Source: Terriglobus albidus
GTDB taxonomy: Bacteria > Acidobacteriota > Terriglobia > Terriglobales > Acidobacteriaceae
DNA: 64,000 nucleotides
Direction: 5' to 3'
NCBI RefSeq assembly: GCF_008000815.1
Contig: NZ_CP042806.1
Coordinates: 4,464,001-4,528,000, forward strand
Below the pieces are notes generated by a model. It was not told the origin of the DNA. It made no database searches and saw nothing but the letters and a program-made list of their open reading frames with translations. The position numbers were made by a program, and so were the translations under genes. Below, in pieces: positions 1 to 14,064 of the stretch. Every line of letters begins with the position of its first letter. Within the stretch, counting starts at the first letter, position 1.

Positions 1-2314
1 CTGAGGCTTCCACCATATTGGTTACGGAACGCACGTACGGGATCGTAGTCTTCATCTGCACGATGCGCTGCCGACCTCGATTGCCTGCGGTCCCGCCACC
101 GGTGCGGTAGATCGCCATGCGCAGATTATTGCTGCCGCTCGGTGTCAGCCTGCCGTGCACTCCGTCACCAAAGACGATTTCGCCCGTGATGCGGTCCAGC
201 GTGTAATGCCGATCCTCCGGACCCGAGCTGCGCAGATCTGGCACGCGCTCGTACGGTACCCAATGTTCGGCACGCCCGGAGCTGACGGAGTGCGAGAGTT
301 CGCGAACCTCCAGGCGCTCCCCTGGTAGAACGGGGCTGCGCGCCGTCTTGACTCGCTGCCCTGGCAGCGCGTTCCCAGAGCCCAGGATCTCGTGTGTGCT
401 GGTCACGGCCTGCGTGGCGGACACCGTATTCAGCAGCACCATACGGAGAGCCGCCGTAAGGTCCGCACCGCCCGCACGCCACGGCACGCGTAACCAGTGA
501 CGCCGCAGCCCGAATAAGGTGCTGGCCTGCGCGGCTGCCGGTGCAAGCAGCGTGACCGCGCCGGAATAAGAGAAGGCAGCAGTTTCATCCACGACACCGA
601 AGTCCTGCCACGCCGAACCGTTCCAGCACTGCCAGGCGATGCGCTGCGAGGTTCCTTCCGCGAGCTGCCCTGCGCGCTGGCGGCTGCTGTCAAAGACGAA
701 GTAAAGCGTCATGGGCAGCGTCGGCAGACCAAGCCCCGGGAGGGATTGAAAGCCGCAGTAGAGCGCCGGCTCAACCTCTGCCGATCGCCGGAACAACAGG
801 ACGCCGCTGCCGGGCGTGCGCAGACTTTCCGATACATTTTCCGTCTGCCACGCATGCGTTACCAGCACGGTCGCCGACCTCGACGCTGCCTGGTGCAGGC
901 TATAGCTACCAAGCACGCTATGCAGAATCGGCGCGGATACGGTCGCGGGTTGATAGACGTACTCCGGCACGCCGGGTTTCGACTCCCGTACAGCGTAGCC
1001 AGCATCCTCGCCGTAGCTGTTCGCAGCCAGCCGGGCGCGCAGCCAAAGCGCTGTCACGCCGCCAACGGTCGATGCGCGAAGCTCAGCTGGCACCACAAAG
1101 GTCACCTCGCCTGACGCGGTAAAGGCACGCGTGCTGTCGCTGAAGCCATTGCCGGAGTCCGGAGTAGCGGCCGAGGTCGTCATCATCCCCAGCAGCTGCC
1201 ATACCGCGCCGTCCCAGAACTCCCACGCGACCCTGGCATTACCCGCCGCATTCACGCGGGGCACCGGTACATCTCCTTCGCCGACGGCCGGATTGGTCAC
1301 ATGGACCTGGAGCTTCACCTGCGTTGCCGCAACGCCAAACAGTTCAGGCTGCGCCAGGTACAACGTGTCGCCGAACCTTGGCCGGTCGCCGAACGGGAAG
1401 AAGTCCTTGTCGAGTTCGAGCGTGCGGCTGCCCGACGACGCCTGAACCAGACGAACACCATCGCCGCTCAGCGTGCGCTCCAGCGTCAGGGAGCGGGCAT
1501 GAACCGCCGCGGCCAGAGGGCTCAGCAGCCGGCAGCGCAGCCAGTAAGCTGTCTCGCCTTCGACTGTAGTTTCAGGAAATGCCGGCATGTCCTGAAAGAC
1601 AACATCACCGCTCTGGGTCATGGCGTTGGTGCCATCGCTTGTGGGCGTAAGCGTCAGCGCCTCTGAGCCGTTCCATATCTCCCATGCAACGACAGGCTGC
1701 GTCGCGGAGAAGACTTCTTCAAGGTCGAAGCTGAGCACAAGCTGCCGCAGCGCCTGCTTGCCGAAAAAGGCGGTGTCGCCGACCCAAAAGGCATGCTCCA
1801 TCGGCGAGTTGCCGGTAAATATCGGGACGGGCTGCTCTGCGGGATCGGAAAGCAGCGACGACAGATCGGTATAGCGGTCGGTCTCCGGCACCTGCACCAT
1901 CAGGCGATCCAGTTGCGCGGTGGACACGACCACTTCGCGATCTGTCTCAAAGATCACAGGTTTGCTCTCGCCCGGACTCGGCGCAGAGGCCACCTGTACG
2001 CCGGCCGGCACCACGGCCGCGATGGTCGCACCCGGGACCGGGCTAAATGTCAGCGGGACGCGCGCCGGCTGCGGCGGCATCACCGTCACTCCCAGTTGCT
2101 CTAAGAACAGCTCACGATGCTGGTCCGAAACGCGATTGATGCGCTCGACCACAAGTTCGGCAAAGCGGCCGAAGACCTGTACCAGACCCGCGGCGGCATC
2201 GCGACGGCTCGGGTCTGCCGTCCAGCCGGGGATATCCTGCGCAAGGCGGCGGTGCGCCTCCGCAATAAGGTCGGCGCGACTGCGCGGATCGACTGCGGGT
2301 GCGGCCGGCATCAT
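1..2314 (-). CDS. Baseplate J-like protein of a contractile injection system (C-terminus beyond window)
   Basis: I translated this open frame by hand; it runs off the left edge, so at least 771 residues are present and the C-terminus is missing. It starts MMPAAPAVDPRSRADL, with the ATG overlapping the stop of the gp25 gene (ATGA). An N-terminal helical part (about residues 1-60) is followed by three copies of a beta-rich repeat, each opening with a W-x-x-W-N/D-G box and closing with WLR (about 1688-1522, 1229-1030 and 640-482). Near residues 707-745 is the baseplate J signature FGDGVHGRL followed by YRTGGGTAGN. Family knowledge: such proteins (TIGR02243-like; Afp11/12 role) form the baseplate wedge that links spike, sheath and fibres. 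The exact subfamily is inference. Confidence 0.85.
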   Translation of the reverse strand, partial: MMPAAPAVDPRSRADLIAEAHRRLAQDIPGWTADPSRRDAAAGLVQVFGRFAELVVERINRVSDQHRELFLEQLGVTVMPPQPARVPLTFSPVPGATIAAVVPAGVQVASAPSPGESKPVIFETDREVVVSTAQLDRLMVQVPETDRYTDLSSLLSDPAEQPVPIFTGNSPMEHAFWVGDTAFFGKQALRQLVLSFDLEEVFSATQPVVAWEIWNGSEALTLTPTSDGTNAMTQSGDVVFQDMPAFPETTVEGETAYWLRCRLLSPLAAAVHARSLTLERTLSGDGVRLVQASSGSRTLELDKDFFPFGDRPRFGDTLYLAQPELFGVAATQVKLQVHVTNPAVGEGDVPVPRVNAAGNARVAWEFWDGAVWQLLGMMTTSAATPDSGNGFSDSTRAFTASGEVTFVVPAELRASTVGGVTALWLRARLAANSYGEDAGYAVRESKPGVPEYVYQPATVSAPILHSVLGSYSLHQAASRSATVLVTHAWQTENVSESLRTPGSGVLLFRRSAEVEPALYCGFQSLPGLGLPTLPMTLYFVFDSSRQRAGQLAEGTSQRIAWQCWNGSAWQDFGVVDETAAFSYSGAVTLLAPAAAQASTLFGLRRHWLRVPWRAGGADLTAALRMVLLNTVSATQAVTSTHEILGSGNALPGQRVKTARSPVLPGERLEVRELSHSVSSGRAEHWVPYERVPDLRSSGPEDRHYTLDRITGEIVFGDGVHGRLTPSGSNNLRMAIYRTGGGTAGNRGRQRIVQMKTTIPYVRSVTNMVEAS

Positions 2315-2700
2315 GCGCGCCCCTGCAGATAGAACGGGTACACCAGGTTGTAACGGCTGTTTGTTCGCAGAATCCGATAGAGAAGATGAATTTCGAGGAC
2401 CGCGCCATTGCTGGCGGGGCGCACGTCGAGCGCCAACAACTCGATGCGGCGCTCCCATACCTCCAGCGCCAGCCTGACCTCGTACGCGGCCAGGCTGGCG
2501 GTCGCGGCGTTGTTGGGCGCGAACACCAGCTGACTCAAGCCGCTGCCGAAATCCGGTCGCATCACCCGCTCACCATGCGCAGTGCTCAGAATCGTCCAGA
2601 TGGACTGCCGCACGCTGCTCTCATACGCTGTAAGACGCACGCCGCCGTCCGCAATCTCCACGGGAAAGCTCCAGCCGACGCCGAGGAAGTCGATGCTCAT
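2311..2700 (-). CDS. gp25/gpW-like baseplate wedge protein
   Basis: A 129-aa protein (MSIDFLGVGWSFPVEI start) with the layout of the GPW_gp25 family. An N-terminal strand is followed by a segment with the RQSIWTIL and GERVMRPDFGSG boxes, the latter being the family hallmark (GER-x-x-x-P-x-x-G), and then the LVFAPN segment. Known role: gp25/Afp9 proteins sit where the sheath meets the baseplate and help nucleate sheath assembly. The gene lies between the PAAR-like tip gene, with a 9-nt gap, and the baseplate J gene, with an ATGA overlap. This is the usual position in injection-system operons. The length is normal for the family. Confidence 0.92.
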   Translation of the reverse strand: MSIDFLGVGWSFPVEIADGGVRLTAYESSVRQSIWTILSTAHGERVMRPDFGSGLSQLVFAPNNAATASLAAYEVRLALEVWERRIELLALDVRPASNGAVLEIHLLYRILRTNSRYNLVYPFYLQGRA

Positions 2701-2709
2701 CGTGTTCTC

Positions 2710-3108
2710 CTATCCGGCCAGAACCGTACCAGCCGCAATCACGGTACCGGCAGGCATATCCGCGGGATCGTTGCAGGTCATGGCGGTATCTCCGTTGCGA
2801 ACGGCACCCTTTCCGTTGATCAGCACCGTCACGCTGCCGGCTGGGACGCTGGCCTGGTTCGATGGTGGCACCTGAAAGCTGATACCCGGCGGCATGGGGA
2901 GATGCGGTGGTGTGTTCACCGCCTTGCTGTCTACCGTAGCCGCCGGCAGCCCGCCAATGAGGACGTTCTGGCTCAGGCCGATCTGCAACTGTCCGCTGAA
3001 GGGGTGTGGCAGCGGCGTCGGTACCGGCCCCGCCGCGCTGGGCACCATAACAATGTGCACATCCACCGCCACCACCTTGTCGCCAAGCTTTGCTGCGGGC
3101 TGTCCCAT
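2710..3108 (-). CDS. PAAR-like spike-tip protein
   Basis: A 132-aa protein beginning MGQPAAKLGDKVVAVDVH, an opening typical of PAAR-like tips. It is rich in Gly, Pro, Val and His, with short motifs (GHx/GDxx-type turns, VLIGGLPAA, INGKGAVRNGDTAMTC) that recall the PAAR/DUF4150 fold. PAAR-like proteins cap the central spike, carry a bound metal ion, and can carry or recruit effectors. No toxin extension is present, so this tip appears purely structural. The gene sits between the spike gene (40-nt gap) and gp25 (9-nt gap). The family call rests on sequence impression and position, not on an alignment. Confidence 0.85.
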   Translation of the reverse strand: MGQPAAKLGDKVVAVDVHIVMVPSAAGPVPTPLPHPFSGQLQIGLSQNVLIGGLPAATVDSKAVNTPPHLPMPPGISFQVPPSNQASVPAGSVTVLINGKGAVRNGDTAMTCNDPADMPAGTVIAAGTVLAG

Positions 3109-3148
3109 GACGCTCCTCTTCTTGATCAGTACGCCTATCGTCTGCGCT

Positions 3149-3787
3149 TCAGTTCAGGTTGATCAGGCTGCCTTTGATGCTGGCCTGTCCGCTCGCCGTC
3201 ACGTTGATGTCCTGCGATGCCTTGATGGCCACTGCAGCCGTTGAAGTGATCTCCACGCCTGCCCCGGTGAGCGTCAGCTTGCCCTGGGCTTCGACCTTCA
3301 CGTTGCCGGCAGCGTGGATGGTGATGCTGTTGTCAGCGGTTGCAATGGTGATGTTGTTCTTCCCACTCTTGTCGATGATCTGGATCTTTTCCGCGCCTTC
3401 CGTGTCGTCCAGGCGCACCATGTGGCCGCTGCGCGACTTCAAAAAGCGATGGTTGTTTTTGCCGTCGGCATTTGCGTCCGGCGGCTTATCCACGCCGTTC
3501 CACAGAGACCCCAGCACGTAGGGATGATCGACCGATCCCTGCTCGAAGGCGATGAGCACCTCGTCACCCACCTCTGGCAGCAGGTACAGGCCGCAATCTT
3601 TGCCGGCCATGGGCGTCACGATCCTCGCCCAGTGGCTTTCGTCGCTTTCATCAAGCCACGGAAACTTCACCTTCACGCGGCCCAAGCCCTCGGCGTCCTT
3701 GTTGTCTGTGACCAGCGCCATCGCGACCCCAAGCGGGTGCGCGGTGCGCCGGTTCAACAGTAGGTTGGGCAATGTTCCCTGGCTCAA
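3149..3787 (-). CDS. Spike protein, gpV/gp5-like half of a split VgrG
   Basis: A 212-aa protein. Residues about 20-100 form an OB-fold Phage_base_V domain, with GVAMALVTDNKD, GRVKVKFPWLDES, WARIVTPMAG and the LPEVGDEVLIAFEQG box. Residues about 140-212 are short beta repeats (NITIATADNSITI and so on, rich in V, T, A and G) that would form the triple-stranded beta-helix needle. In most T6SS VgrGs and in Afp8 this module is fused behind a gpD/gp27 domain. Here it is a separate gene directly downstream of the gpD-like gene with an ATGA overlap. No C-terminal effector domain is seen. The protein should trimerise with its partner to form the membrane-piercing spike. Confidence 0.92.
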   Translation of the reverse strand: MSQGTLPNLLLNRRTAHPLGVAMALVTDNKDAEGLGRVKVKFPWLDESDESHWARIVTPMAGKDCGLYLLPEVGDEVLIAFEQGSVDHPYVLGSLWNGVDKPPDANADGKNNHRFLKSRSGHMVRLDDTEGAEKIQIIDKSGKNNITIATADNSITIHAAGNVKVEAQGKLTLTGAGVEITSTAAVAIKASQDINVTASGQASIKGSLINLN

Positions 3788-4854
3788 TTTGCGTTCCTTC
3801 TCGCTTCGAAGCTGGTGCGGTAACCATTGTGGCTGTAGCGATGCGTGGCAGAGGTTATGTAGTACAGACCGCTGTGTGCCTTTCCAAGTCCGTCCAGGTG
3901 CACCGTGATGCCCGCGCGCAGATCGGTACGGCCGTTCAACTCGCTTTCCGCTCGTATGTAGTCAAGTGCCATCCGCTGCAGCCTGGCCTTTGCAACCTGG
4001 TCGGCATCTGCCTGGCTGGATGTCGGGTGCGAGCCGCCATTCCATGTCGCATCGCCAAACGCCGAACTGGCCGCCGCGATGCCAAGCGCCTTGCCGCTCA
4101 TCGTGGAGCTTTCGTCGTCGCTCGAACTCTGGCCCACGCGCGCTCTCTTGCTGGCGGCATCCCACGAACGCATGGCCACGGCTCCGACCTGCTGCATGGA
4201 CGAGCGGTAGATGCTGATCTGCTGCAGGTCTGCGGGATAGTTGAGCGTAAGGCTCTCTGCCGCTGTATGTTTTCTGGCGCGGAAGATCAGGCGGCGATCG
4301 CGTACAAAGACCTCGTAGCCGATGCGTTGCGCTCGCGTCTCCAGAAACTCTGCGTCCGTCAGGTTGTTCTGCAGAACATAGGGGTAAACCTCGCGGGTTG
4401 GCTCGGTCTCGACGATCAGCCCATACCGCCCTGCGATCTGCTCCACGATGTCACTGTCGGTCATATGGGTGAACGAGTGTGTTTTCCGTCCGCGCATCAG
4501 CCGGTGGCCTCGGTCGTAGCCCCGCACCACAAAGCGCGGCTCCTGGCCGGCCGCGCACACCAGCTCTGAGCCGGTTATCTCTCCGGTCATGAGCGTCTCG
4601 GTCTGATCCATGTAGCCCAGCTTGATCTCCAGTGTCTTGCCTATCGCAAACAGCTCGTCGTCACTCCACTTCATACCCGGCCGCGCAGGATCCGCACCCC
4701 AGTTCATCAGGCTCAGCGAAAACGTAGCCGGGTGCTGCACCTCTTCACGCACAAGCACGCTAAGCAGGTCCTGCGCCGCCTCGCCGGGCAGTGGCGTGCC
4801 GTCTACGGTCACGGTCACAACGGAGACAAGGTTCATTACGCTGGAAGCTGCCAT
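3784..4854 (-). CDS. gpD/gp27-like hub protein, N-terminal half of a split VgrG
   Basis: A 356-aa protein matching the late-control gpD/Phage_GPD pattern. It has N-terminal beta domains, the LEIKLGYMDQTETLMTGEIT segment, FVVRGYDRGHRLMRGRKTHS, then a helical D-x-D-I-V-E-Q-I-A-x-R-Y region, the Q-N-N-x-T-D-A-E-F-L-E-x-R-A box and YEVFVRDRRLIFR. Such hubs trimerise to connect the tail tube to the spike. Residues about 225-300 form a flexible Ser-rich linker. The stop overlaps the start of the gpV-like gene, so the two halves are probably translated together in equal amounts. The gene lies 4 nt downstream of the LysM gene, in the expected tube-to-baseplate order. Confidence 0.92.
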   Translation of the reverse strand: MAASSVMNLVSVVTVTVDGTPLPGEAAQDLLSVLVREEVQHPATFSLSLMNWGADPARPGMKWSDDELFAIGKTLEIKLGYMDQTETLMTGEITGSELVCAAGQEPRFVVRGYDRGHRLMRGRKTHSFTHMTDSDIVEQIAGRYGLIVETEPTREVYPYVLQNNLTDAEFLETRAQRIGYEVFVRDRRLIFRARKHTAAESLTLNYPADLQQISIYRSSMQQVGAVAMRSWDAASKRARVGQSSSDDESSTMSGKALGIAAASSAFGDATWNGGSHPTSSQADADQVAKARLQRMALDYIRAESELNGRTDLRAGITVHLDGLGKAHSGLYYITSATHRYSHNGYRTSFEARRNAN

Positions 4855-4858
4855 CGCG

Positions 4859-5647
4859 TTAACGGTCCACCGTAGGGATCATCAGCACGCGCCCCGGCCG
4901 CAGGTCCAGCGGATCGGTAATGTGGTTGGCGACAGCGATCGGACGCCACAAGGCATCGTCATGCAGGGTTTCGCGTGCGATGCTGGCGAGCGTATCCCCG
5001 GGGTTGACCACGTAAACCTTGTTGACATCGGCAGAGTGCGCTTCGGTGCTGCCGTCCGGCGTGGGCGGTATCCACTGGGTAAACTCGCAACGAAGAGTAG
5101 CCCGCAAGGGTTTCCCATTGGAACTGAAGTAGCTGAGAGTTTGAGTGATCTTGCTCGCGTGCCCGACGAACAGCACTTTACCGTTGGGGTATCCCTCACC
5201 CCACGTGAGCTGACAGAGTGGCGGCCTGTGCAGGTCCACGTCCATCCGTACCAGGTTGATCACGCGCGAGGTGTACTTTCGTACGTCCTCGGGAAGTTTG
5301 TCGGCAGACACCGAATCGTCGCCAGTGACCGGTTCCGTGGTGTCGAACAGCAAATCGAAAGTGAGAGTGTCCAGTAACCAATGTTGGAACTGGTTCAGCG
5401 CAAACTTCGCATTCAACGACGGAGGCGGAACTGTTCCGTTCACCCATTTTGCGGCCATTGTGTGCGCCAGGCTGGCGGGATTGAACATTACCTGGAAGCC
5501 CTTGTTGTCCTTGATAAATCTCGGGCTTCCAGTGTCACCCTTTTTCTCCACCACGATCGTCATCTTTGAAATGGCCGTCGGTTTGTCACCGAGGTCGCTA
5601 TTGATCGACTGATCGATGTATCCCGTAACTGGGTTCCCTATTCCCAT
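4859..5647 (-). CDS. LysM-domain tail protein (Afp7/gp53-like)
   Basis: A 262-aa protein with a C-terminal LysM domain (about residues 205-259: VYVVNPGDTLASIAR, then LWRPIAVAN and RPGRVLMIP). Its N-terminal half has the contractile-tail LysM protein pattern: VMFNPASLAHTMAAKW, FALNQFQHWLLDTLTFDLLFDTTEP, VINLVRMDVDLHRPP. In Afp and PVC the equivalent protein joins the tube to the baseplate, and its LysM domain is structural rather than a secreted peptidoglycan enzyme. The ATG at 5647 overlaps the end of the upstream charged protein gene by 10 nt. Length is near the usual size of about 230-270 aa. Confidence 0.9.
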   Translation of the reverse strand: MGIGNPVTGYIDQSINSDLGDKPTAISKMTIVVEKKGDTGSPRFIKDNKGFQVMFNPASLAHTMAAKWVNGTVPPPSLNAKFALNQFQHWLLDTLTFDLLFDTTEPVTGDDSVSADKLPEDVRKYTSRVINLVRMDVDLHRPPLCQLTWGEGYPNGKVLFVGHASKITQTLSYFSSNGKPLRATLRCEFTQWIPPTPDGSTEAHSADVNKVYVVNPGDTLASIARETLHDDALWRPIAVANHITDPLDLRPGRVLMIPTVDR

Positions 5648-7119
5648 GCGCTTACCCCCCGGCGTTCCGCTTCCAGTTCCATCGTTCGCGCGAACCGATG
5701 CAGCACCTGTTCCGCCAGTTCGTCCAGGTCCAGCCCGTGAAATGCTTCGAGGGCCTTTGTCGCAGTGTTCGAAGCGTCGTGAGCTGTCGCGGCGCTGCTG
5801 GTCAGTGCGCTGGACTCACCTCGTTGCGGCGAACTTTCCTTTGCATGCTGTGCATCGCCTTCACTCCGTTCCACCCTGGCCAGGGCCGCGGGCGCACCGA
5901 TCGCGGCTGCCCGCACTACGGTCACCGGCCCAGCCTCTCGCGTCGCAGGAATCTCGCCGACCGTGTCATGAGCCGCTGATGTTCCTGCCAAGGGTGCGGA
6001 CGGTGTTCCCTGCGCGGGGGAAGCGGCAGGCTGCCCATCGGGCTTGTTGGACCGTCGGAGATGCTCAGCGTTGAGCGGCGGGTACGGCTCCTGGATCTGC
6101 CCCATGCCACCAGCCAGCAATGCTGCCGTTACGGCCTCAGTATGCTCTGCGGCCGCGGACTGATGATACATCTCTTCAAGCTTCTCCTTCTCTTCTTTCT
6201 CCTCCTTCTTCTTCTTCTCCTCCTCAGCCTTTTTCTTCTCTTCCGCTTCTTTCTTCTCTTGCTCAGCCTTTGCGCTTTGCGTGTGTGCCATTGCCGCTGC
6301 ATCTGCGTTGTGCGTCGCAGCTCCAGCGTGCCCACGGTCCTTTTTGTGGACAGCGGAGATGGGTTGCTGCTTTGTGGGTTGCGCGTCAGCCTTGACGACG
6401 GCCGCGGCCGGCTGCGATGCGGGAGTATCTGCTGCCGTTTTCTGCGTTGCGGCTCCCGCTCCTCCACCCGCAGCCGAAGACGAGTCCGCCGGCGCGGGCG
6501 GTTTTCTTCGCTCCGGTAAGACCGTCAGCAGTTTGTAGGTTTGCCCTGCCTCGCCCATGCCTCCAGCCAGCAGCGCGTTGTGGGTGCGCTCCAACCCCTG
6601 TACCCATGCGCTCTGGCCATACATGTGCGAAACCTCGTCTTCGGTCAGATCCGGGGGATCATCCTCCGTTTTCGGCACAGGGTGCTCTAGCGACTTTGAT
6701 GGTGCTGTCGGCTGGGCACCCTTCGTCTCAGCGGTGCCTGGTGCCGTGCCGGGTGCGGATACTGTCGCGCTCGCGGGTATCTCTGCCTCGTGTCGCGTTG
6801 TAGATGCAACGACCGCGTTCACTGGCAGCGGTGTCTCTTGCACGTTGCCACCGGCTGCGACGCCGGAGCGGGGATCGATTGGCACACCAGGCACGACTCT
6901 CGGCCGCGGCGCAGCGGTATTGCGTGTATTCATGGAGCCGTTCCAAACCTGGTCGGCTGGCTCATCCGTTCTCCAGCGCTTCTCAATCTCCCGCACGAAC
7001 CGCCGAACCGCGGCACCTGGCATATCTGCCAGCTGAGACAACTCGTCGCGTTTGATCATGAGCGCACGTTCGTAACGCGCCAGCATCTCGCGCGCCCACG
7101 CTTCCAAGATTCCCTCCAT
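5638..7119 (-). CDS. Charged, low-complexity injection-system protein with a duplicated 24-residue box
   Basis: A 493-aa protein that I do not recognise. The start at 7119 is chosen because GGGAGGG precedes it by 6 nt and the longer frame upstream overlaps the tube gene. Residues 1-50 form a charged helix (MEGILEAWAREMLARYERAL). Two boxes of equal length (24 residues) begin MYGQSA and MYHQSA and both end ALLAGGMG, at residues 166-189 and 317-340. Residues 285-316 are almost only Lys, Glu and Ala, likely a single charged helix. Ala/Pro/Thr-rich linkers fill the rest, and the C-terminus has a conserved-looking helix (LDLDELAEQVLHRF, ending ELEAERRG). Its position between tube 2 and the LysM gene implies a structural or assembly role, which is inference. 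Confidence 0.8.
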   Translation of the reverse strand: MEGILEAWAREMLARYERALMIKRDELSQLADMPGAAVRRFVREIEKRWRTDEPADQVWNGSMNTRNTAAPRPRVVPGVPIDPRSGVAAGGNVQETPLPVNAVVASTTRHEAEIPASATVSAPGTAPGTAETKGAQPTAPSKSLEHPVPKTEDDPPDLTEDEVSHMYGQSAWVQGLERTHNALLAGGMGEAGQTYKLLTVLPERRKPPAPADSSSAAGGGAGAATQKTAADTPASQPAAAVVKADAQPTKQQPISAVHKKDRGHAGAATHNADAAAMAHTQSAKAEQEKKEAEEKKKAEEEKKKKEEKEEKEKLEEMYHQSAAAEHTEAVTAALLAGGMGQIQEPYPPLNAEHLRRSNKPDGQPAASPAQGTPSAPLAGTSAAHDTVGEIPATREAGPVTVVRAAAIGAPAALARVERSEGDAQHAKESSPQRGESSALTSSAATAHDASNTATKALEAFHGLDLDELAEQVLHRFARTMELEAERRGVSAWE

Positions 7120-7151
7120 CGCACCCTCCCTTCCGCGTGGCTGCGTTGCTG

Positions 7152-7697
7152 TTACAGAGAAGCGATCGCCGAGACGCCGCCGATTGCCATGCCAGTCAGA
7201 TTCAAGTCTTTGCTTATGCCGCGATGCACCAGCTCGATGCTTTCGAAAGCGACCGCAGCTTCTCCCGCCTTGAATGCCGGCCCGGTCCATTTCACCGGAT
7301 AGGCATCCCGGAAATTCCAACGCCACATTTCGAGCAGGTTGCTTGTCATCAGCACGATCGATCCGTTGCGCCGCTCGATCTTGCCCTGCATCGCGTCGGC
7401 GTGCCATTGCCACAGCATGTCTGCCGTTGTCAGGCCTCGCTTCAACACAAGACGTGAGTGCTTCACTCCGCTTGTGCGGACCTCCTCAAAGTCGTTCTGG
7501 CCGCCTTCGGGCACCGGAAAGGTCTTGAGTTCGACGTCCAGGCCGGACACCTCCGTGAATCCACCCACCAGCAGTCCATCAATCTCGACTTCGAAATGAT
7601 GTGCCATGGCGGGATCGACTCGATTGCCCAGTCCAAGGCTGCCAGCGATGCTCATTGCCGTTCCAACGCGTGCCATCGCTGTACCGAAGTTGCCCAT
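7152..7697 (-). CDS. Tube protein 2 (gp19-like, N-terminally extended)
   Basis: A 181-aa gp19/TIGR02241-type tail tube protein. The core begins HHFEVEIDGLLVGGFTEVSG, followed by L-x-V-E-L-K-T-F-P-V-P-E-G-G, KHSRLVLKRGLTT, W-x-W-H-A-D-A-M-x-G-K-I-E-R-R-N-G and WNFRDAYPVKWTGPAFKAG. These are the standard tube boxes. An extra N-terminus of about 33 residues (MGNFGTAMARVGTAMSIAG) is rich in Gly, Ala and Met, and a Gly/Ala tail closes the protein. It is a paralogue of the 145-aa tube protein upstream. In Afp/PVC the distal tube proteins form the layers next to the spike. Its start overlaps the stop of the 56-aa gene (TGATG). Confidence 0.92.
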   Translation of the reverse strand: MGNFGTAMARVGTAMSIAGSLGLGNRVDPAMAHHFEVEIDGLLVGGFTEVSGLDVELKTFPVPEGGQNDFEEVRTSGVKHSRLVLKRGLTTADMLWQWHADAMQGKIERRNGSIVLMTSNLLEMWRWNFRDAYPVKWTGPAFKAGEAAVAFESIELVHRGISKDLNLTGMAIGGVSAIASL

Positions 7698-7867
7698 CAG
7701 TATCCTCGCTCCTGCGTTCCGTTCAAGCGTTCGTTCATCTGGGACACTTCCTGCACCCAGCGCCTGCGTTCGAAGTGATCCATGCCCATGATCTGGTCAA
7801 AGGGCCAGTGAAAGTAATAAGCCAGGTACGCTACCTCTCCGCGAAGCTGCTCCGGAGGGTAGCTCAT
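7697..7867 (-). CDS. 56-aa conserved injection-system small protein (DUF6760-like)
   Basis: A short gene I found by translating the gap between tube 2 and the 120-aa gene. The product starts MSYPPEQLRGEVAYLAYYFH and contains the box HWPFDQIMGMDHFERRRW, then VQEVSQMNERL. Small proteins with this H-W-x-x-x-x-I-x-x-M-x-x-x-E-R-x-x-W pattern sit between the tube genes in many eCIS loci, in the Afp6-like position. They resemble the helical T4 gpG/tail-chaperone class, but their function is not settled. Both ends overlap neighbours (ATGA with the upstream stop, TGATG with tube 2), which supports it being real and translationally coupled. Confidence 0.88.
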   Translation of the reverse strand: MSYPPEQLRGEVAYLAYYFHWPFDQIMGMDHFERRRWVQEVSQMNERLNGTQERGY

Positions 7868-8226
7868 GCTTCCCCCAACCGGCCAACCTCTACCTCAAAG
7901 TGTGTCGAGCAGTGCGGGCAGGCCACGCCCACCCTGGAGTGGCCGGTGCTGTTGATGCGTCGGTAGAAGTCCTGCAGGTACGCCAGGTCGGCAGCGAAGA
8001 GGTTCTCCATCACCTTGGGGTTGATGTGCGTCAGCTCGCCCAACTGGGTGACGACGCGTGAGAGCAGGATCAGAATGAGATAGCCGCTGTTGCTCTGCAC
8101 GCGTGGGTCTTTCATGGGCGCGATCTCGTCGTAGGCAGTTGCCAGCCGCATCACGCCGTCGCGATGCAGGTTTCCCTCGGCATCGGGAGCGCCAATGGGC
8201 AGGCGGAACGGAAATTCCGTCGTCAT
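7864..8226 (-). CDS. CxxC protein, putative tail assembly chaperone of the injection system
   Basis: A 120-aa protein. I choose the ATG at 8226, which overlaps the tube 1 stop (TGATG); a GTG one codon upstream is also possible. The N-terminus reads MTTEFPFRLPIGAPDAEGN, followed by a helical core (GVMRLATAYDEIAPMKDPRV, then LILLSRVVTQLGELTHINP). It ends with a half zinc-ribbon, CPHCSTHFEVEV. Conserved proteins of this shape stand directly after the tube gene in many contractile injection loci and are annotated as phage tail assembly proteins. The four-gene chain of 1-4-nt overlaps around it argues for a stoichiometric assembly factor. The chaperone role is inference. Confidence 0.8.
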   Translation of the reverse strand: MTTEFPFRLPIGAPDAEGNLHRDGVMRLATAYDEIAPMKDPRVQSNSGYLILILLSRVVTQLGELTHINPKVMENLFAADLAYLQDFYRRINSTGHSRVGVACPHCSTHFEVEVGRLGEA

Positions 8227-8663
8227 CACGGCCGATCCACTCCCTCATGCGCAATGACAAGCGATTCAATGGCCACATCGGTCGCCGTGGCGGTCAGCGC
8301 CGGACCTGTCCAGGAGGTGGGCCAGCCCATCTTGAAGTTCCATCGGACCTTCTCCTGGCCAGCTTCATCCAGCAGCACGACGGAACCATTCTTGCGTTCG
8401 GTCTTGCCATCGACGACCTTCTTGCGCCAGTTCCAAAGCTCCCTATCGTCAGAGGAACCCCATTTCAACGTGATGTTGTTGTAGTTCTGCAAACCAACCA
8501 GCTTGCGCGGCGTAAGTGGATCGTTGCCCTCGCGGTAGGGAATGACGGTGTTGCTGGAATCAAGGCCAGTGCATTCGCGAAATCCACCGCGCTGGATGCC
8601 GTCGATCTCAATCACGAAGTGAAACGCGTGATACGGTGCTTTGCGATCATCAGAGGAAGGCAT
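8226..8663 (-). CDS. Tube protein 1 (gp19-like, Afp1/PVC1 role)
   Basis: A 145-aa tail tube protein, close to the usual 145-150 aa. Visible boxes are YHAFHFVIEIDGIQRGGFRE with CTGLDSSN, then PYREGNDPLTPRKLVGLQNY, ITLKWGSSDDRELWNWRKKV, DGKTERKNGSVVLLDEAG and W-N-F-K-M-G-W-P-T-S-W-T-G-P. The family is the inner-tube (Hcp/gp19) fold, six subunits per ring, stacked to make the hollow tube driven out by sheath contraction. As the simpler of the two tube genes and the one nearest the sheath genes, it is the likely major tube subunit. It lies 5 nt after the sheath 2 gene. Confidence 0.95.
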   Translation of the reverse strand: MPSSDDRKAPYHAFHFVIEIDGIQRGGFRECTGLDSSNTVIPYREGNDPLTPRKLVGLQNYNNITLKWGSSDDRELWNWRKKVVDGKTERKNGSVVLLDEAGQEKVRWNFKMGWPTSWTGPALTATATDVAIESLVIAHEGVDRP

Positions 8664-8668
8664 AGTTC

Positions 8669-9826
8669 CTACTCCTTTTTCGTTGTTGGGGAATTCGTGC
8701 TGCCCAGCGTCAACTCACCAGCACTGTAGGTCAGGCGCACCACGATGAACTCCGCGGGCGCAACGGGTGCGATGCCGATTTCCGCAACCAGCATGCCCGC
8801 CTCACGCGTGGCTGCTGTGTTGGTCGTGTCATCGCAGCGAAGATAAAACGCCTGCTCGGGGGATGCCCCGGCCAGCGCGCCCTTGCGGTACAAGTCCTCA
8901 AGGTATGCGCCGACGGTGCGGCGTACACGGGCCCACAGGGCTCGCGTACTCGGCTCAAAGGCGATCGGTGCAAGCGCGCTCTGCAGCCATCGCTGCAACG
9001 TAAGCAGCACGCGGCGCACGCTGATGTGGCGCCATTCGTCGTGGGGGTCGATCGTACTCGCTCCCCATACCCGCAAACCGCGCCCGGGAAACGACCGGAT
9101 CCAGTTCACCTGGCTACGCCCTTGTGCCGTCGCAAATACCTCGCCGTCCAGCCTGCGGATTCCGGAAAGGCTCCGGTTCGCTGGTGCATAGAAGACACCG
9201 CGCTGACGATCGTTGCGCGCATACGAACCGGCAATGTGACCGCACGGTGGCACCGCAATGGCAAGCGGAGATGGAGCATCCGTCACATCCGTTGCGTCCA
9301 ACAAATCCACCACGAGCCATGGACTGTAAACCGCGGCGCTGCGACCCTTCAGTTGGGCCACCTGCTGTGCTGCTGCCTCGGGTGATGCGCCCTGCAGCGT
9401 ATCCAGAATGGCGAAGCGCTCGGCGCCCGCATCGCACCACTCCACAACGCGGCGCTGCAGTGGGGCAAACCATTGCGGTGCCTGCGAAAGATCGGGCAGG
9501 CAGATGAGGTCTGCGTCCTCCAGCCCTTCCACCTGGTCGAGTGCCTCATCCAGGGCCGCCATGGGTCCCAGCTCAGGACGGAGTGCATAGACGTAGCAGA
9601 GTTCTCCACCGTTATCGAAGAAGCCACGCACAGCCGCCGCAAGCAATCCGCTCGGAGCATTGATGCCATAGAACGCGACGAACTGCGCCCACGAAAGTAC
9701 AAGCCGTGGTATGCCAACGTGCACCGTAGCGTGCGCCAGAAACACGGGAACACCCGTGTGAAAGCTCCGCCGCGGCGTCGCTTCGATCTCTTGGAGGTAC
9801 AAGCCCGGTAGGATCAGCGCTTTCAT
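8669..9826 (-). CDS. Tail sheath protein 2 (short form)
   Basis: A 385-aa sheath family protein starting MKALILPGLYLQEIEATPRR, where the G-x-Y-x-Q-E box is the sheath N-terminal arm. Then come F-F-D-N-G-G-E-L-C-Y-V-Y, VVDLLDAT, PPCGHIAGSYARND, R-G-V-F-Y-A-P-A-N, W-G-A-S-T-I-D, the WRHISVRRVLL segment and a C-terminus with EIGIAPVAPAEFIVVRLTYS. All are standard sheath motifs. Sheath subunits wrap the tube and contract to drive it. Compared with sheath 1 it lacks the low-complexity insert near the N-terminus. AGGA lies 8 nt upstream of the ATG, and the gene follows sheath 1 by 9 nt. Confidence 0.93.
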   Translation of the reverse strand: MKALILPGLYLQEIEATPRRSFHTGVPVFLAHATVHVGIPRLVLSWAQFVAFYGINAPSGLLAAAVRGFFDNGGELCYVYALRPELGPMAALDEALDQVEGLEDADLICLPDLSQAPQWFAPLQRRVVEWCDAGAERFAILDTLQGASPEAAAQQVAQLKGRSAAVYSPWLVVDLLDATDVTDAPSPLAIAVPPCGHIAGSYARNDRQRGVFYAPANRSLSGIRRLDGEVFATAQGRSQVNWIRSFPGRGLRVWGASTIDPHDEWRHISVRRVLLTLQRWLQSALAPIAFEPSTRALWARVRRTVGAYLEDLYRKGALAGASPEQAFYLRCDDTTNTAATREAGMLVAEIGIAPVAPAEFIVVRLTYSAGELTLGSTNSPTTKKE

Positions 9827-9835
9827 GTTTGTGTC

Positions 9836-11185
9836 CTACTGGCCCTGAGGTCCGGTCCATTGACTGAGGCGGAAGACTACGAACTCCGCAGGCCGCACAA
9901 TCGCCACACCGATCTCGGTCACCACCTGGCCAAGTTCTCGCAACTCAGGCGGATTTGTTTCACGATCGCATTTCACGTAGAACGCCTCGGCTGCCGTCGC
10001 ACCAAAGAGTGCGCCGTCACGCCAGACCGTCGTCAGAAACGCGGTCACGTTGCGTGTAATCTTGGCCCACAGGCTTAGATCATTTGGTTCGAAGACCACC
10101 CACTGCGTTCCCTCGTCAATGGACTTGTAGAGAAACAGCGCCGTTCGGCGAACGTTGATGTAGCGCCATTCCCCATTGCGATCGCCGCCGATGGTGCGCG
10201 CGCCCCAAACGCGGATGTTGCCGTTCAGGCTCCGGATGCAGTTCACCCCAACGTTATTCAAGCCATCCTGTTGCGATTTACGGATCGGATACTTCAAGCC
10301 GAGGGCACCCAATACGACCTCGTTCGCAGGCGCCTTGTGGACGCCGCGCGAACTGTCTGTGCGCGCATAAATGCCAGCCATGTGACCGCTTGGCGGAACG
10401 AACGTCAGGCCTGGTCCATCCGGATAACGCGTTTTCACGCCCGGGTCAAAGACCTGCACCCACGGAAAGTAAACAGCTGCATTTTTTGAGCCATCCGGCA
10501 GTAACGAGGCATCGATGGTGTTCACGGTCTCTGGAGTGTCCATGATGGCAAAGCGATTGCCCGTCGCATCGCAATGCGCCACCAACGCTGCGCGAACGGC
10601 AGTGTCCGTGATGCCCGGCGCTGCCACGATTGCAATCTCGTCGACACTTTCCAATGCCTGCAGAGAACTGTTCAGTTGAACGGTCGAGACCATACGGGTG
10701 ACATACAGGCGCGTACCTCCGTTGTTGAAGAATCCGAAAACGGCATGCACCAGCATGTTATGTTCTGGATCGGTAGAAAAGTCTCCGTAACTCTGCTTGA
10801 ATTCGGCGAAATTCGTGAATAAACGAGGCTCACCCGCCGGAGCTGCAATGGGGAACACGCGTAACAGGAAGCGGCTCGTTTTGTCAGGCGCGGCACCAAC
10901 GACTGATTTCAAGGGAGGAGTTGGCCCATCGCTACCCTTTGCTTCCTCGCTACTCTTTGCCCCATCATCACCGGCCTTGGACGAGGCTTTGGTGACGGGG
11001 GAAGGAGCGACAGCGGATGCCATGGCAGCGGCGGGATCGTAGTCAGGATTTCTCTCGGGGATTGAAACGGTATCGGGAACAATCGCCAGGAATCCTGCTG
11101 TACTGGTACCGACGCCTGCAATCGCCTGCACCGCGGAAGGAATCTCCTGGACATACACGCCCGGAGAAAGATATGCGTTCGGCAT
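9836..11185 (-). CDS. Tail sheath protein 1
   Basis: A 449-aa sheath protein. The start at 11185 (MPNAYLSPGVYVQEIPSAVQ) is preferred because AAGGAG stands 9 nt upstream; the open frame extends 11 codons further. Motifs: the N-terminal arm SPGVYVQEIPS, F-F-N-N-G-G-T-R-L-Y-V-T-R, PPSGHMAGIYARTD, RGVHKAPANEVVLGALGL, INVRRTALFLYKSI and a C-terminal arm EIGVAIVRPAEFVVFRLSQ. The two arms interlock neighbouring subunits in the known family structures. Residues about 48-95 are an Ala/Ser/Lys-rich insert that probably faces outward. Paralogue of the following gene; Afp and PVC likewise carry more than one sheath gene. Confidence 0.95.
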   Translation of the reverse strand: MPNAYLSPGVYVQEIPSAVQAIAGVGTSTAGFLAIVPDTVSIPERNPDYDPAAAMASAVAPSPVTKASSKAGDDGAKSSEEAKGSDGPTPPLKSVVGAAPDKTSRFLLRVFPIAAPAGEPRLFTNFAEFKQSYGDFSTDPEHNMLVHAVFGFFNNGGTRLYVTRMVSTVQLNSSLQALESVDEIAIVAAPGITDTAVRAALVAHCDATGNRFAIMDTPETVNTIDASLLPDGSKNAAVYFPWVQVFDPGVKTRYPDGPGLTFVPPSGHMAGIYARTDSSRGVHKAPANEVVLGALGLKYPIRKSQQDGLNNVGVNCIRSLNGNIRVWGARTIGGDRNGEWRYINVRRTALFLYKSIDEGTQWVVFEPNDLSLWAKITRNVTAFLTTVWRDGALFGATAAEAFYVKCDRETNPPELRELGQVVTEIGVAIVRPAEFVVFRLSQWTGPQGQ

Positions 11186-11297
11186 AGCTGCTGCTCCTTG
11201 AGGAAACAAACCAGACAACGAGTTACAAACTGAGGATCTGAAAAATCAAAGCGTTCCGAACTGCGATATCGCGCTGATTCGTAGTAGCGTCGTGTAA

Positions 11298-11615
11298 CTA
11301 CTCAGGGGTTAGGCGGCGCGGGTATTTGGGGGTTAGGGGTGCCGGCAGCTCCAGATCGAGCCATAACATCCGGAAATCTTCCTGGTGGTAATCACCAATC
11401 TCCGCCAGGACCTCGCATTGCAATCCTTGGTGATTGACCGCGATCATACATGGGCCTCGCATAAGGTCCACGAAAAAATAACTGCCGTCTTCGCCTGTTC
11501 GGGCGTGCGCCACGACCGCACCATCTTTCGCCCGTTGCGCCGACAAGGCGACGTCGGCTATGACCTGCTTTGCGGCATCGCGCACAAAACCACCGATCAC
11601 GCATTGGTGTGACAT
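11298..11615 (-). CDS. Carboxypeptidase regulatory-like (beta-sandwich) small protein in the injection-system operon
   Basis: About 105 aa from the ATG at 11615 (MSHQCVIGGFVRDAAKQVI), which has GGGAG just upstream; an ATG six codons earlier (11633) overlaps the upstream gene instead. The sequence follows the CarboxypepD_reg pattern: G-x-V-x-D, P/D-x-A-L-S-x-x, then TGEDGSYFFVDLMRGPC and a Y-H-Q-E-D-F-R-M segment. Such transthyretin-like folds often mediate protein or sugar binding. It has no signal peptide, so it is probably a structural or decoration piece rather than a secreted enzyme. It lies between the tube terminator and sheath 1. Its exact role is unknown. Confidence 0.7.
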   Translation of the reverse strand: MSHQCVIGGFVRDAAKQVIADVALSAQRAKDGAVVAHARTGEDGSYFFVDLMRGPCMIAVNHQGLQCEVLAEIGDYHQEDFRMLWLDLELPAPLTPKYPRRLTPE

Positions 11616-11625
11616 CGTCTCCCAC

Positions 11626-12246
11626 TCAGGCACGGGGCGTCTCCGGCGAGGAAGGTTGTTCGGTGATACTTCGGAAGCGAACAGTGCGACCCGTAACCAA
11701 CGGCGTTCCTTGCGGAGCGAAGACCGGCACGGGAAAGGTCACTTCATAGTCCAGCGATAGCTTCTGTCGATTGCCCAGCGCCTGGTACACCGACGCTGCT
11801 CGAGCAGGACTCGCGTTGGAGAGCTTGCCCGTAACCGCGCCCGCCGACAGTCCTGAGAGAGCACCCATGAAGACCTCAGCGGGCAACAGGGGCGTGCCCA
11901 GCAGTGCAGCTGTCAGCGTACCAATAATTCCATGCTCCTGACTTGCGTTCACATCCGTCTTCTCGTCTGTCCAAACCGTGATGAGGTAGGTTGCACTTAG
12001 AAAAACCGGTGGCCGCTGTACTTGCGCTGTACCGTCCGCCTGTCGCTGCACGGTCGATGCGTTCTCACGCATATCATCGCGCTGCGTAATTCCGCACAGG
12101 AAGAGGTTGATGAGGGGCAATGCAGTCTCTTCCGAAGGAAACCCAGTGCCAGGATTCGCGAACGAAATCTCGGGGGGGCCTGTCGGAGCCGACGCGCAAA
12201 CCGGTTGCAAAAAAGCCTGCAGGGTCTTGTCGAGATCATCAATCAC
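11626..12246 (-). CDS. Tube/sheath terminator (DUF4255, Afp16/Pvc16-like)
   Basis: 206 aa from a GTG at 12246 (VIDDLDKTLQAFLQP). That start is chosen because AAGGAG lies 5 nt upstream and because Afp16-like proteins begin with just such an I-x-D-L-D-x-T-L helix. The longer open frame to 12324 would add a basic, unlikely leader. Family boxes: INLFLCGITQRDDMRENA, PPVFLSATYLITVWT and L-G-T-P-L-L-P-A-E-V. The DUF4255/Pvc16_N family caps the growing tube and sheath and fixes their length. The gene precedes the sheath genes here, whereas it is last in the Afp and PVC operons. Confidence 0.85.
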   Translation of the reverse strand: MIDDLDKTLQAFLQPVCASAPTGPPEISFANPGTGFPSEETALPLINLFLCGITQRDDMRENASTVQRQADGTAQVQRPPVFLSATYLITVWTDEKTDVNASQEHGIIGTLTAALLGTPLLPAEVFMGALSGLSAGAVTGKLSNASPARAASVYQALGNRQKLSLDYEVTFPVPVFAPQGTPLVTGRTVRFRSITEQPSSPETPRA

Positions 12247-12344
12247 ACGCACTCCTTGCCCGCATCTACGTCGCCGCTTCTTCTTGCCCTTATGACCAAA
12301 GAGGGCGCGCTCCTGGCCAGGCAACAGTTCACCCTTCCAGAGGC

Positions 12345-12821
12345 CTACTGCCTGCTCATACTCATGCCTCCACCATCGCCACGCGCCATTGCGCTGTACA
12401 CGGTGGTCTTGGTACTTAAGAGCCCCGCAGCAGTAACGCGCATATCGTACTGCAGCTCAGCGATGTCGTTGTTCAACTGAAAGTTTCGGATCACAATTTG
12501 TATCGTCAGCTTGCCTATCAGGAGGCCGGAAACATCTTCCTCGAGGTCTACACGAAAGTTCTTGATCATCCCATTGCTGTAAAACCACGATGGCGTGAGG
12601 GTTACGCGGCTTCGCTCCGTGGGATTATCCATGCCCAGAGACTCTTCGAAGAAGTCATAGATGCTATAGATCTCGGGATATTGCACGGGGCCGCTCCACG
12701 GATCGAAGTCGGAGGGTGACTTTCCTTGGGGCAGGACATTAACATCATCCGGAGCGGTGATCTTTACATTGTCCTTCAGAATTTCCCAGGTAGTTTTGAT
12801 GAGATCGGCAATTTCGCTCAT
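12345..12821 (-). CDS. Unknown 158-aa protein at the head of the injection-system operon
   Basis: A 158-aa soluble protein starting MSEIADLIKTTWEILKDNVK. I do not recognise the family. It has an N-terminal helix, a central segment (WSGPVQYPEIYSIYDFFEES, then SRVTLTPSWFYSNGMIKNFR) and a beta-rich C-terminal half (LTIQIVIRNFQLNNDIAEL). There is no signal peptide, membrane segment or obvious catalytic motif. It lies 98 nt upstream of the terminator gene and 142 nt downstream of the 83-aa gene, all on the same strand. A structural or regulatory part of the injection system is likely from context; a cargo protein is an alternative. Confidence 0.65.
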   Translation of the reverse strand: MSEIADLIKTTWEILKDNVKITAPDDVNVLPQGKSPSDFDPWSGPVQYPEIYSIYDFFEESLGMDNPTERSRVTLTPSWFYSNGMIKNFRVDLEEDVSGLLIGKLTIQIVIRNFQLNNDIAELQYDMRVTAAGLLSTKTTVYSAMARGDGGGMSMSRQ

Positions 12822-12963
12822 GCGCTGAACACCTTCCTGATTCTCGAACGTTAAAAGTCAGTCTTGGTCAGCAGGAACATCCCACGAAAGCGTGGATGGT
12901 GGGCTCGTGTACCTGCGTGGTCGAGTTGCAAAACGAGTAGGCGATAGCTCAAAAGTTCTTCAC

Positions 12964-13215
12964 TTACGAGATCGCGGTCTCACTGCCGTCCGTAACGGAA
13001 ACATTCACCTGCATCGGCCCATCGGACCGCTGATACGCGATCTTGCCGTACAAGCCGTCGTCGGTATAGACCTCCAACGCTTCCGTCGGCTGATTCGGTT
13101 CGAGATAACCGTTGAAGATCACTGGGGGTGAGTTAGGGTCACGCCCTTGGTCCACGATAGTCCAAAGGCGGCTTTCGCCGTAGTTACTACGGAACGTTGC
13201 GCGAAGCGTTGGCAT
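12964..13215 (-). CDS. Unknown 83-aa protein, first gene of the injection-system operon
   Basis: An 83-aa beta-rich protein (MPTLRATFRSNYGESRLWTI; later LYGKIAYQRSDGPMQVNVSV) without signal peptide. No family is recognised. The alternation of polar and hydrophobic residues and the many Gly/Asp turns suggest a small beta-sandwich. AGAGGG lies about 10 nt upstream of the ATG. It is the first gene in the minus-strand block, followed by 142 nt of spacer in which I see no further gene. Being unrelated to any standard eCIS part I can name, it is a candidate accessory, immunity or effector-like component. That is inference from position alone. Confidence 0.55.
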   Translation of the reverse strand: MPTLRATFRSNYGESRLWTIVDQGRDPNSPPVIFNGYLEPNQPTEALEVYTDDGLYGKIAYQRSDGPMQVNVSVTDGSETAIS

Positions 13216-13845
13216 GGGGGATGCCCTCTATACAAGATTTGTTTCGTCTTGCCGATCACCGTTTCTTACTAACAGTAACGATCAAAGGCCATTATGGTCG
13301 CAGACCGCTTGCTCACGTTAGCGGGTCTAAGGTGGCACACAAACTCCAAGGCTTCCAAGAAAAGTTCGCTTGGAATATTTGGATTGTGGCACGTTGGAGG
13401 CTATGTCGGCGTCTTTAGCCGAAGATGTTTTCCTTAGGTTCTCCTTAGGTTCTCCTTAGGCTTTCCTTAGGCTTTCCCCGGAGACGGCCAGTGTAGAAGC
13501 GCGTGCTAGCACGCCAGCCGTTTCCTCCCTGCTCTCGAGAGAGAGGACCGCCAACACTGAAAGCTCTCTTACAGGGAGGCTCTCTCTCTATATAGTCGCC
13601 CTCCGTTGGAGTGCCCGGCTTGACTGTGCCGAAGGGTATGAGAGCAGGACAAGAGCGTATGGGACGGGGTAAGAAGTATCGTTGAGGCGAATCGACGGAA
13701 ATAGGAAGTCCCCGGCTTCCTGATAAGCGGATTCCCTTCTCCACTCTGCGAGAACAGCGCAGACGCTCTTGTGCAGCGGTACGGGCTTCCGGCGCTGCCT
13801 TGTCGACGATGAATGAATTGGGCGCACTTGTCTTCCTCAGGCCGA
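13216..13845. other. Non-coding interval upstream of the injection-system operon
   Basis: About 630 bases without a credible gene. The open frames seen here overlap each other on both strands and match nothing I recognise. The interval should contain the promoter of the minus-strand injection-system operon, but I cannot point to a convincing -35/-10 pair. It holds the 11-bp tandem repeat listed separately. The right end passes into a histidine-kinase fragment, so part of this interval may also be decayed coding sequence. Confidence 0.5.
13428..13482. repeat. 11-bp tandem repeat, five units
   Basis: Five head-to-tail units of exactly 11 bp, with consensus TTCTCCTTAGG on the plus strand. The first four end in CCTTAGG and the fifth is degenerate (CTTTCCCCGGA). 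Each good unit contains the 7-bp palindrome CCTAAGG. A period of 11 bp is close to one helical turn, so repeats would lie on one DNA face. The array is about 210 bp upstream of the first injection-system gene. Confidence 0.85.
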
Positions 13846-14064
13846 TGTCTTCTGCGCCTCAAACAAGCTACGGCCAAAATCCACATTCGTCTCGGGGAAC
13901 GGCTTCAGGAGCGAGAACGAATTGCGCGAGATCTTCACGACACATTGTTGCAAGACTTCCAAGCAGTAATACTCCGATTCCAGATTGCCGCAAAGCGCAT
14001 GGCCAAGGACGACCTCAATCGGCCAGAGATCGAAAAGGGCCTAGATTACGCAGATGATGTCTTG
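13846..14064 (+). pseudogene. Histidine kinase remnant (HisKA_3 region)
   Basis: A fragment of about 73 codons of a two-component sensor kinase. It shows the linker LKQATAKIHIRLGERL and the HisKA_3 phospho-acceptor helix ERERIARDLHDTLLQDFQ, with the conserved His, then about 30 residues up to YADDVL. No sensor part, no ATPase (HATPase_c) domain and no upstream transmembrane propeller follow or precede it. The kinase similarity stops at about 14064, exactly where the opposite-strand M13 peptidase fragment ends, so the two fragments were joined by a deletion or rearrangement. It is not expected to make a working protein. Confidence 0.8.

Follow-up and report, generated by a model that had tools for sequence, protein, structure and literature searches.

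What is a contractile injection system (CIS) whose genome encodes the syringe but no recognizable ATPase to load it? The question is raised by the left end of a 64,000-nucleotide stretch of the Terriglobus albidus chromosome (RefSeq assembly GCF_008000815.1, contig NZ_CP042806.1, positions 4,464,001 to 4,528,000; G000:C1:4464001-4528000 in our numbering, and called the window below), where 17 CIS genes occupy the minus strand from window position 13215 to 1. The genome (G000; G and L numbers are our handles for genomes and loci) is one contig of 6.41 Mb and is 99.74% complete. Three things are unusual in it: there is no recognizable CIS-type ATPase, there is no eCIS_core protein, and a protein with one transmembrane segment and ricin-type repeats (the ricin-TM protein) is encoded beside a broken paralogue. 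The reading that we favor, at roughly even chances, is that of a class II operon of the extracellular CIS (eCIS) superfamily that has kept its chassis and lost its standard loading module, and whose particles would assemble unloaded or carry a lectin-transmembrane protein or tip-borne cargo.

A CIS genome without a recognizable ATPase

The CIS ATPase of relatives has about 650-760 residues and is encoded upstream of DUF4255 or, in Caballeronia and Paraburkholderia, at the 3' end. An earlier note on this DNA had seen no ATPase gene inside the window; this was borne out, and the leftward extension of the operon lacks one as well. An AAA gene at 55.2 kb in the window gave the strongest ATPase match (E 3e-4) of the 96 kb surrounding the locus. 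When the whole contig was searched with a seven-row ATPase profile, no recognizable Cis15-type AAA+ ATPase was found, and the best match, a generic AAA protein, scored 75 bits. By contrast, the profile found an ATPase in 34 of 34 other genomes in which CIS genes were seen, with a lowest score of 287 bits; seven of these genomes are in the profile and 27 are not.

The 34 genomes come from three sets (15 + 5 + 15, less one shared genome, G231). First, 15 of 16 genomes in the initial set had an ATPase at 525 bits or more, the exception being G000 at 75 bits. Second, of six genomes of the same family with a match to the g8 protein of the operon, five had an ATPase at 605 bits or more; the sixth, G481 (66 bits), contains only an isolated g8-like open reading frame (ORF) and no CIS, and was left out of the count. 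Third, of 28 genomes with DUF4255 genes, 24 had an ATPase with an E-value of 1e-30 or lower. The exceptions were G000, G136, G161, and G288, and in the last three none of the 20 CIS proteins of the operon has a match in the 40 kb fetched (37 kb in G161). Among 20 regions from 19 DUF4255 genomes, 15 held CIS genes, and all 15 genomes have the ATPase. The regions of G136, G161, G288, and G008 and the first of two G111 regions were dropped because they matched none of the 20 proteins, and eight DUF4255 genomes with an ATPase match (G049, G057, G180, G195, G204, G235, G238, and G259) stayed uncounted, their surroundings being unfetched. Genomes with damaged ATPase genes were counted as positive (G571, L176, two pieces and one stop; G046 and G575, L106, one stop).

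According to the earlier note, absence of an eCIS-type ATPase from a complete genome would refute its proposal of an eCIS-like system. None was recognized in this one-contig genome; because the structural genes still indicate the eCIS superfamily, we read the locus as a variant rather than a refutation. A literature search, which was not exhaustive, turned up no paper describing a CIS genome that lacks the ATPase.

Composition and extent of the operon

The window edge cuts the seventeenth gene (J1), and the operon continues leftward to about window -3269 (positions left of the window are negative), with the remainder of J1, J2, a Tail_P2_I/CIS12 gene, and a CIS13-like gene bringing the total to 20.

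12964..13215, minus strand: g1, orphan of 83 residues (no Pfam, NCBIfam, PHROG, or PDB match)
12345..12821, minus strand: g2, orphan of 158 residues (no family)
11626..12324, minus strand: g3, DUF4255/Pvc16_N tail terminator, Cis16 (Pfam 9e-20; best PDB chain 9gts_0A, a Pvc16_N protein, 8e-14)
11298..11633, minus strand: g4, CarboxypepD_reg (Pfam 1.4e-7; 32.2 bits, just under the cut-off of 32.3)
9836..11218, minus strand: g5, sheath A, Cis2 (PF04984 over cut-off, 7e-19; PDB 8bky/9gtp 4e-98, 8bl4/9gts 1e-95)
8669..9826, minus strand: g6, sheath B (PF04984 over cut-off, 1.3e-8)
8226..8663, minus strand: g7, inner tube, gp19, Cis1 (Pfam 6e-41)
7864..8229, minus strand: g8, tail assembly chaperone-like, with a C-terminal CxxC (PHROG 508, tail assembly chaperone, 2e-6)
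7697..7867, minus strand: g9, DUF6760, weakly P2 gpE-like (Pfam 2e-15; Phage_P2_GpE 0.029)
7152..7697, minus strand: g10, second tube/adaptor, CIS5-like (Pfam gp19 2e-35; CIS5_fam 4e-33, under its cut-off)
5638..7119, minus strand: g11, low-complexity protein with a C-terminal ERRG-type motif (motif comparison with relatives)
4859..5647, minus strand: g12, CIS_tube + LysM, Cis7 (Pfam 5e-26 and 9e-7)
3784..4854, minus strand: g13, gpD-like hub, N-terminal VgrG part (Phage_GPD 5e-18; VgrG_rel profile 3-346 of 547)
3149..3787, minus strand: g14, gpV-like spike, C-terminal VgrG part (Phage_base_V 2e-29; VgrG_rel profile 371-538 of 547)
2710..3108, minus strand: g15, PAAR tip (Pfam 1.5e-10)
2311..2700, minus strand: g16, gp25, Cis9 (Pfam 6e-22)
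1..2311, on to window -646, minus strand: g17, baseplate J, Cis11, J1 (TIGR02243 1e-79)
After g17, to about window -3269: J2, Tail_P2_I/CIS12, and CIS13-like genes (CIS12_fam 3e-15, far under its cut-off)

These Pfam and NCBIfam assignments agree with the earlier count of 17 same-strand CIS genes, including two head genes of no known family (g1 and g2), and place a contractile sheath, gp19 tube, gp25, and baseplate J together in one cluster. Both sheath matches in the genome lie in the operon, and its DUF4255 gene is the only one in the genome. Start/stop overlaps had been ascribed to most junctions; we counted 7 of 16 in the window, where 14 of 16 either overlap or have gaps of at most 40 bases, and 8 of 19 across the 20-gene operon. 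GC content is 60.5% in the operon; the two flanks with which it was compared have 52.1% and 58.2%. The last CIS gene encodes a 332-residue CIS13-like protein, whose weak N-terminal match (2.6e-10, far under cut-off) is the only fibre-relevant one. Family scans recognized no tape measure family among the operon genes. No fibre, tape measure, lysis, or phage-regulation genes were recognized in the operon or in the gene starts read around it, and no capsid or terminase in the gene starts read on both sides, where few flank genes were family-scanned. With no phage head genes noticed in what was read, the earlier preference for a domesticated tail device, here of the eCIS superfamily, is supported.

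Comparison with related clusters

The g8 protein is a conserved marker of this class of CIS. Used as bait, it recovered at least 380 relatives in public genomes, of which 80 were kept as loci; their genes were called with a simple caller, and some were missed or mis-framed (for example gpV of L106, which is present by BLAST). Sixteen of the 20 genes (g3, g5-g10, and g12-g20) match five relatives with most of their length aligned and about 30-74% identity in BLAST, some alignments being partial (for example g20 against a much longer L127 protein); g1, g2, g4, and g11 are outside this aligned set. The closest clusters are class II systems of Acidobacteriota, Myxococcota, and Accumulibacter (L102, L103 = G402, L106, L127, and G485), whose gene order is nearly identical to that of G000. 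All five have the ATPase, and other genes stand in the slot that holds only g1 and g2 in G000; most of these relatives have the ATPase together with extra, often cargo-like, genes there.

The order DUF4255, g4-like, sheath A, sheath B, tube, chaperone, DUF6760, tube 2, variable gene, LysM, gpD, gpV, (PAAR), gp25, J1 recurs in L102, L103/G402, L106, and G485, with J2 directly after J1 wherever the fetched stretch extends that far; a PAAR gene was not found in L102 and G485. We therefore rejected the description of the operon head as unusual, for these Acidobacteriota and Myxococcota relatives normally have the same arrangement of DUF4255, the g4-like gene, two sheath genes, and gpD apart from gpV. 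The peculiar part of the head is the orphans g1 and g2 only. The head of G000 is reduced, too: g4-like proteins in relatives are about twice the length of g4 (27-33% identity in a MAFFT alignment, by which, and not by Pfam scan, they were recognized), and an 86-127-residue gene found between g4 and sheath A in L102, G402, and G485 has no counterpart in the 79-base gap of G000.

Several candidate identities for the less conserved genes were tried. For g1, homology to the protein of an 82-residue gene between the ATPase and DUF4255 in L103/G402 was judged weak only: the pairwise score was 51, which none of 2000 shuffles reached (top shuffle, 50), and phmmer gave an E of about 5 among the fetched ORFs. 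The g2 protein is present in one of 300 family genomes, its own, and had no match in the 80 CIS loci, in phages, or in IMG/VR. Its one distant homologue is on an Indioceanicola plasmid (33%, E 7e-13); we rejected g2 as a CIS gene family, since this sole homologue found has no annotated CIS gene within 20 kb, in an annotation that is incomplete. The neighbor of the Indioceanicola homologue belongs to no Pfam family, its PDB matches do not go below E 0.2, and the structure model of g2 is poor (pLDDT 52). The idea that g4 is a second cap protein (Cis16B) was tried with a profile built from g4-like proteins, which hit none of the CIS cap chains in the PDB. The g11 protein has no convincing match in Pfam (best 0.002, under cut-off), NCBIfam, or PHROGs; its homologues carry the ERRG-type C-terminal motif or a variant in the 45 loci printed, with candidate frames of about 300-1224 residues, and g11 retains the motif. 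Proteins of the g11 type sit between tube 2 and LysM, and their length varies greatly among relatives.

In a 67-row gpV tree, G000 stands alone in an open group (support 80/77) whose 37 rows come from Acidobacteriota, Cyanobacteriota, Myxococcota, and Pseudomonadota. Streptomyces clavuligerus falls outside this group on a long branch, and the same-family CIS genomes G231, G380, and G508 belong to a different gpV group. The tree rows of L103 and of G402, which bears the family label of G000, are identical, as are those of G380 and L139. The mixture of phyla is consistent with horizontal transfer. As far as sampled, the lack of the ATPase looks private to the G000 lineage. In G250 (L091/L092), the ATPase is flanked by two DUF4255 genes in one cluster, and VgrG is fused.

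Judged by its nearest relatives, the system is a class II CIS, and its best solved sheath matches are the Streptomyces, haloarchaeal, and thylakoid CISs. Entries 8bky/9gtp and 8bl4/9gts of the Streptomyces coelicolor CIS (type IId) are the best solved matches of sheath A, and 9gts is also that of DUF4255; 9GTP and 9GTS are named in an excerpt of PMC12237407. Excerpts of PMC10066040 and PMC12237407 describe two tube homologues, no conventional fibre, and no typical tape measure in that system, and G000 likewise has no recognized tape measure family. G000 differs from Streptomyces CISs in its two sheaths, its gpD and gpV encoded apart, and its PAAR gene, and it lacks the ATPase that the S. clavuligerus cluster has upstream of the sheath. 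Among solved structures, the sheath of the Anabaena thylakoid CIS (7b5h; PMC8894136) is one of the better matches to sheath A. Its cap consists of two proteins (PMC8894136, in part), and the cap position of G000 is occupied by the gene pair g3 and g4; unlike the Anabaena system, the CIS13-like protein of G000 has no clear transmembrane segment (top mean hydropathy 1.67 versus 2.31 for the ricin-TM protein). Haloarchaeal CISs are assigned to clade IIa with a type VI secretion system mode in the excerpted text of PMC11566945, where Haloferax larsenii, like G000, has separate VgrG/gpV, PAAR, gp25, DUF6760, and two baseplate proteins but, unlike G000, has an AAA ATPase, a DUF4157 gene, and a split cluster.

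Candidate cargo

Searches for eCIS_core (DUF4157) gave no match in G000, whereas six of seven other genomes were positive in the same search, the other negative being G481; the domain was confirmed in relatives G402 and G485. In the Terriglobia relative G402 (L211:10968-12309), three small proteins of 122-137 residues with similar hydrophobic, alanine-rich stretches lie between the ATPase and the eCIS_core protein and are possible cargo. The candidate in G000 lies beyond the 3' end of the operon and outside it, on the opposite strand.

About window -5009 to -4167 (L003:8991-9833), plus strand: ricin-TM protein, 280 residues (ricin-type repeats, PF14200, 1e-32)

The protein consists of an N-terminal domain, one hydrophobic segment (the mean hydropathy of 2.31 given above), and the ricin-type repeats. 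Right after the last CIS gene, there is a related N-terminal/transmembrane piece (39% over 61 residues) and a CarboxypepD piece; this paralogue looks broken because the two pieces are in different frames. The N-terminal region occurs at two places in G000, both beside the CIS, and in none of the other 397 family genomes (398 searched). Streptomyces Sco4256-4258, encoded in the S. coelicolor cluster, are one-transmembrane proteins with a similar N-terminus, two of them with ricin C-termini, and a triple mutant produced about 85% empty particles and lost CIS-dependent death (excerpt of PMC10066040). Farther left, at window -6578 to -5949 (L003:7422-8051, minus strand), the receiver and the GerE helix-turn-helix of a LuxR/NarL-like response regulator lie in different frames as separate ORFs; either a pseudogene or an assembly indel would account for it.

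Weighing the alternatives

A number of observations count against a functional chassis that lost its loading module. First, many of the 80 loci show no ATPase within their 10 kb flanks (for example L162, L163, and L121); distance therefore says little, and genome-wide absence is what counts, and the profile would miss an ATPase that had diverged strongly. Second, the ricin-TM protein resembles the Sco4256-4258 effectors in layout only, with no sequence homology shown; its structure model (pLDDT 40) is useless, plasmids gave no match to its N-terminal region, and the 29,246 ORFs from 206 loci yielded no ricin domain beside the CIS of relatives at E 1e-3. Third, the proposed self-directed target is borrowed from Streptomyces. 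Finally, the broken genes nearby suggest decay or indels in this region of the genome, no close homologue was found with which purifying selection on the operon could be gauged, and the open frames may mean merely that the ATPase was lost recently.

These last points lead to the strongest competitor, a recently crippled CIS that has lost its ATPase and cargo, no longer works, and is beginning to decay. We regard this relic as somewhat less probable than the favored reading but as a serious contender. Both flanks contain gene fragments: between the CIS head and a cupin gene, window 13813-14485 holds a HisKA_3 histidine kinase fragment and M13 peptidase fragments in two overlapping frames, and on the other side lies the multi-frame transmembrane/CarboxypepD gene; the short g4 points the same way. 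Against decay of the operon itself, all 20 genes are open, the 16 BLAST-aligned genes are mostly full length, and g11 retains its C-terminal motif.

An ordinary eCIS whose ATPase function comes from an unrelated host AAA+ protein is improbable. The genome offers 26 AAA matches, the best of which by E-value to the CIS ATPase is a 356-residue frame at about 1.06 Mb (28% over 181 residues). A role for this protein as the CIS ATPase is not supported: its 75 bits compare with at least 287 for the CIS ATPases counted and lie within the range (~42-90 bits) that many other AAA proteins reached in that search, and its neighbors are unrelated. In the region L036 192-3376, it is preceded by a 187-residue protein that resembles a ubiquitin-conjugating (E2-like) enzyme, and the pair may belong to a bacterial ubiquitin-like operon.

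A defective prophage tail or R-type tailocin, already disfavored and now very improbable, would share the absence of Cis15 with R-type bacteriocins and phages (excerpt of PMC12210884) but conflicts with the DUF4255 cap, the CIS_tube + LysM protein, the two TIGR02243-type baseplate proteins, the CIS12/CIS13-like genes, the synteny with ATPase-bearing CIS clusters, and flank gene starts that, read by eye, resemble ordinary chromosomal genes.

Proposed mechanism and meaning

In the reading that we favor, a chassis kept and a loading module lost, the open genes for cap, two sheaths, two tubes, assembly chaperones, hub, spike, tip, and baseplate would still allow particles to assemble in the cytoplasm. 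A precedent is provided by Photorhabdus, in which PVC particles form without Pvc15 yet lack payload (excerpt of PMC11495950). Cargo loading by the standard ATPase route would be impossible, and the particles might serve as unloaded puncturing devices or bear the lectin-transmembrane protein or tip-borne cargo; the probable target would be the producer's own envelope, as in Streptomyces. The loading module may have been lost together with the 5' flank, its usual site in most relatives examined and now a stretch of gene fragments; the HisKA_3 and M13 pieces suggest where the loss occurred.

A bolder version is that this is a working natural CIS without a loading ATPase, in which the lumen or tip takes membrane-anchored lectin proteins and which acts on the producer's own envelope. 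We think this unlikely; if true, building the syringe and loading the syringe would be separable in evolution. G000 brings together class II CISs and one-transmembrane ricin proteins, two themes from distant phyla. A whole natural chassis without the ATPase also makes it testable whether the ATPase serves for loading only, and whether a cell gains anything from a CIS that is unloaded or loaded in another way.

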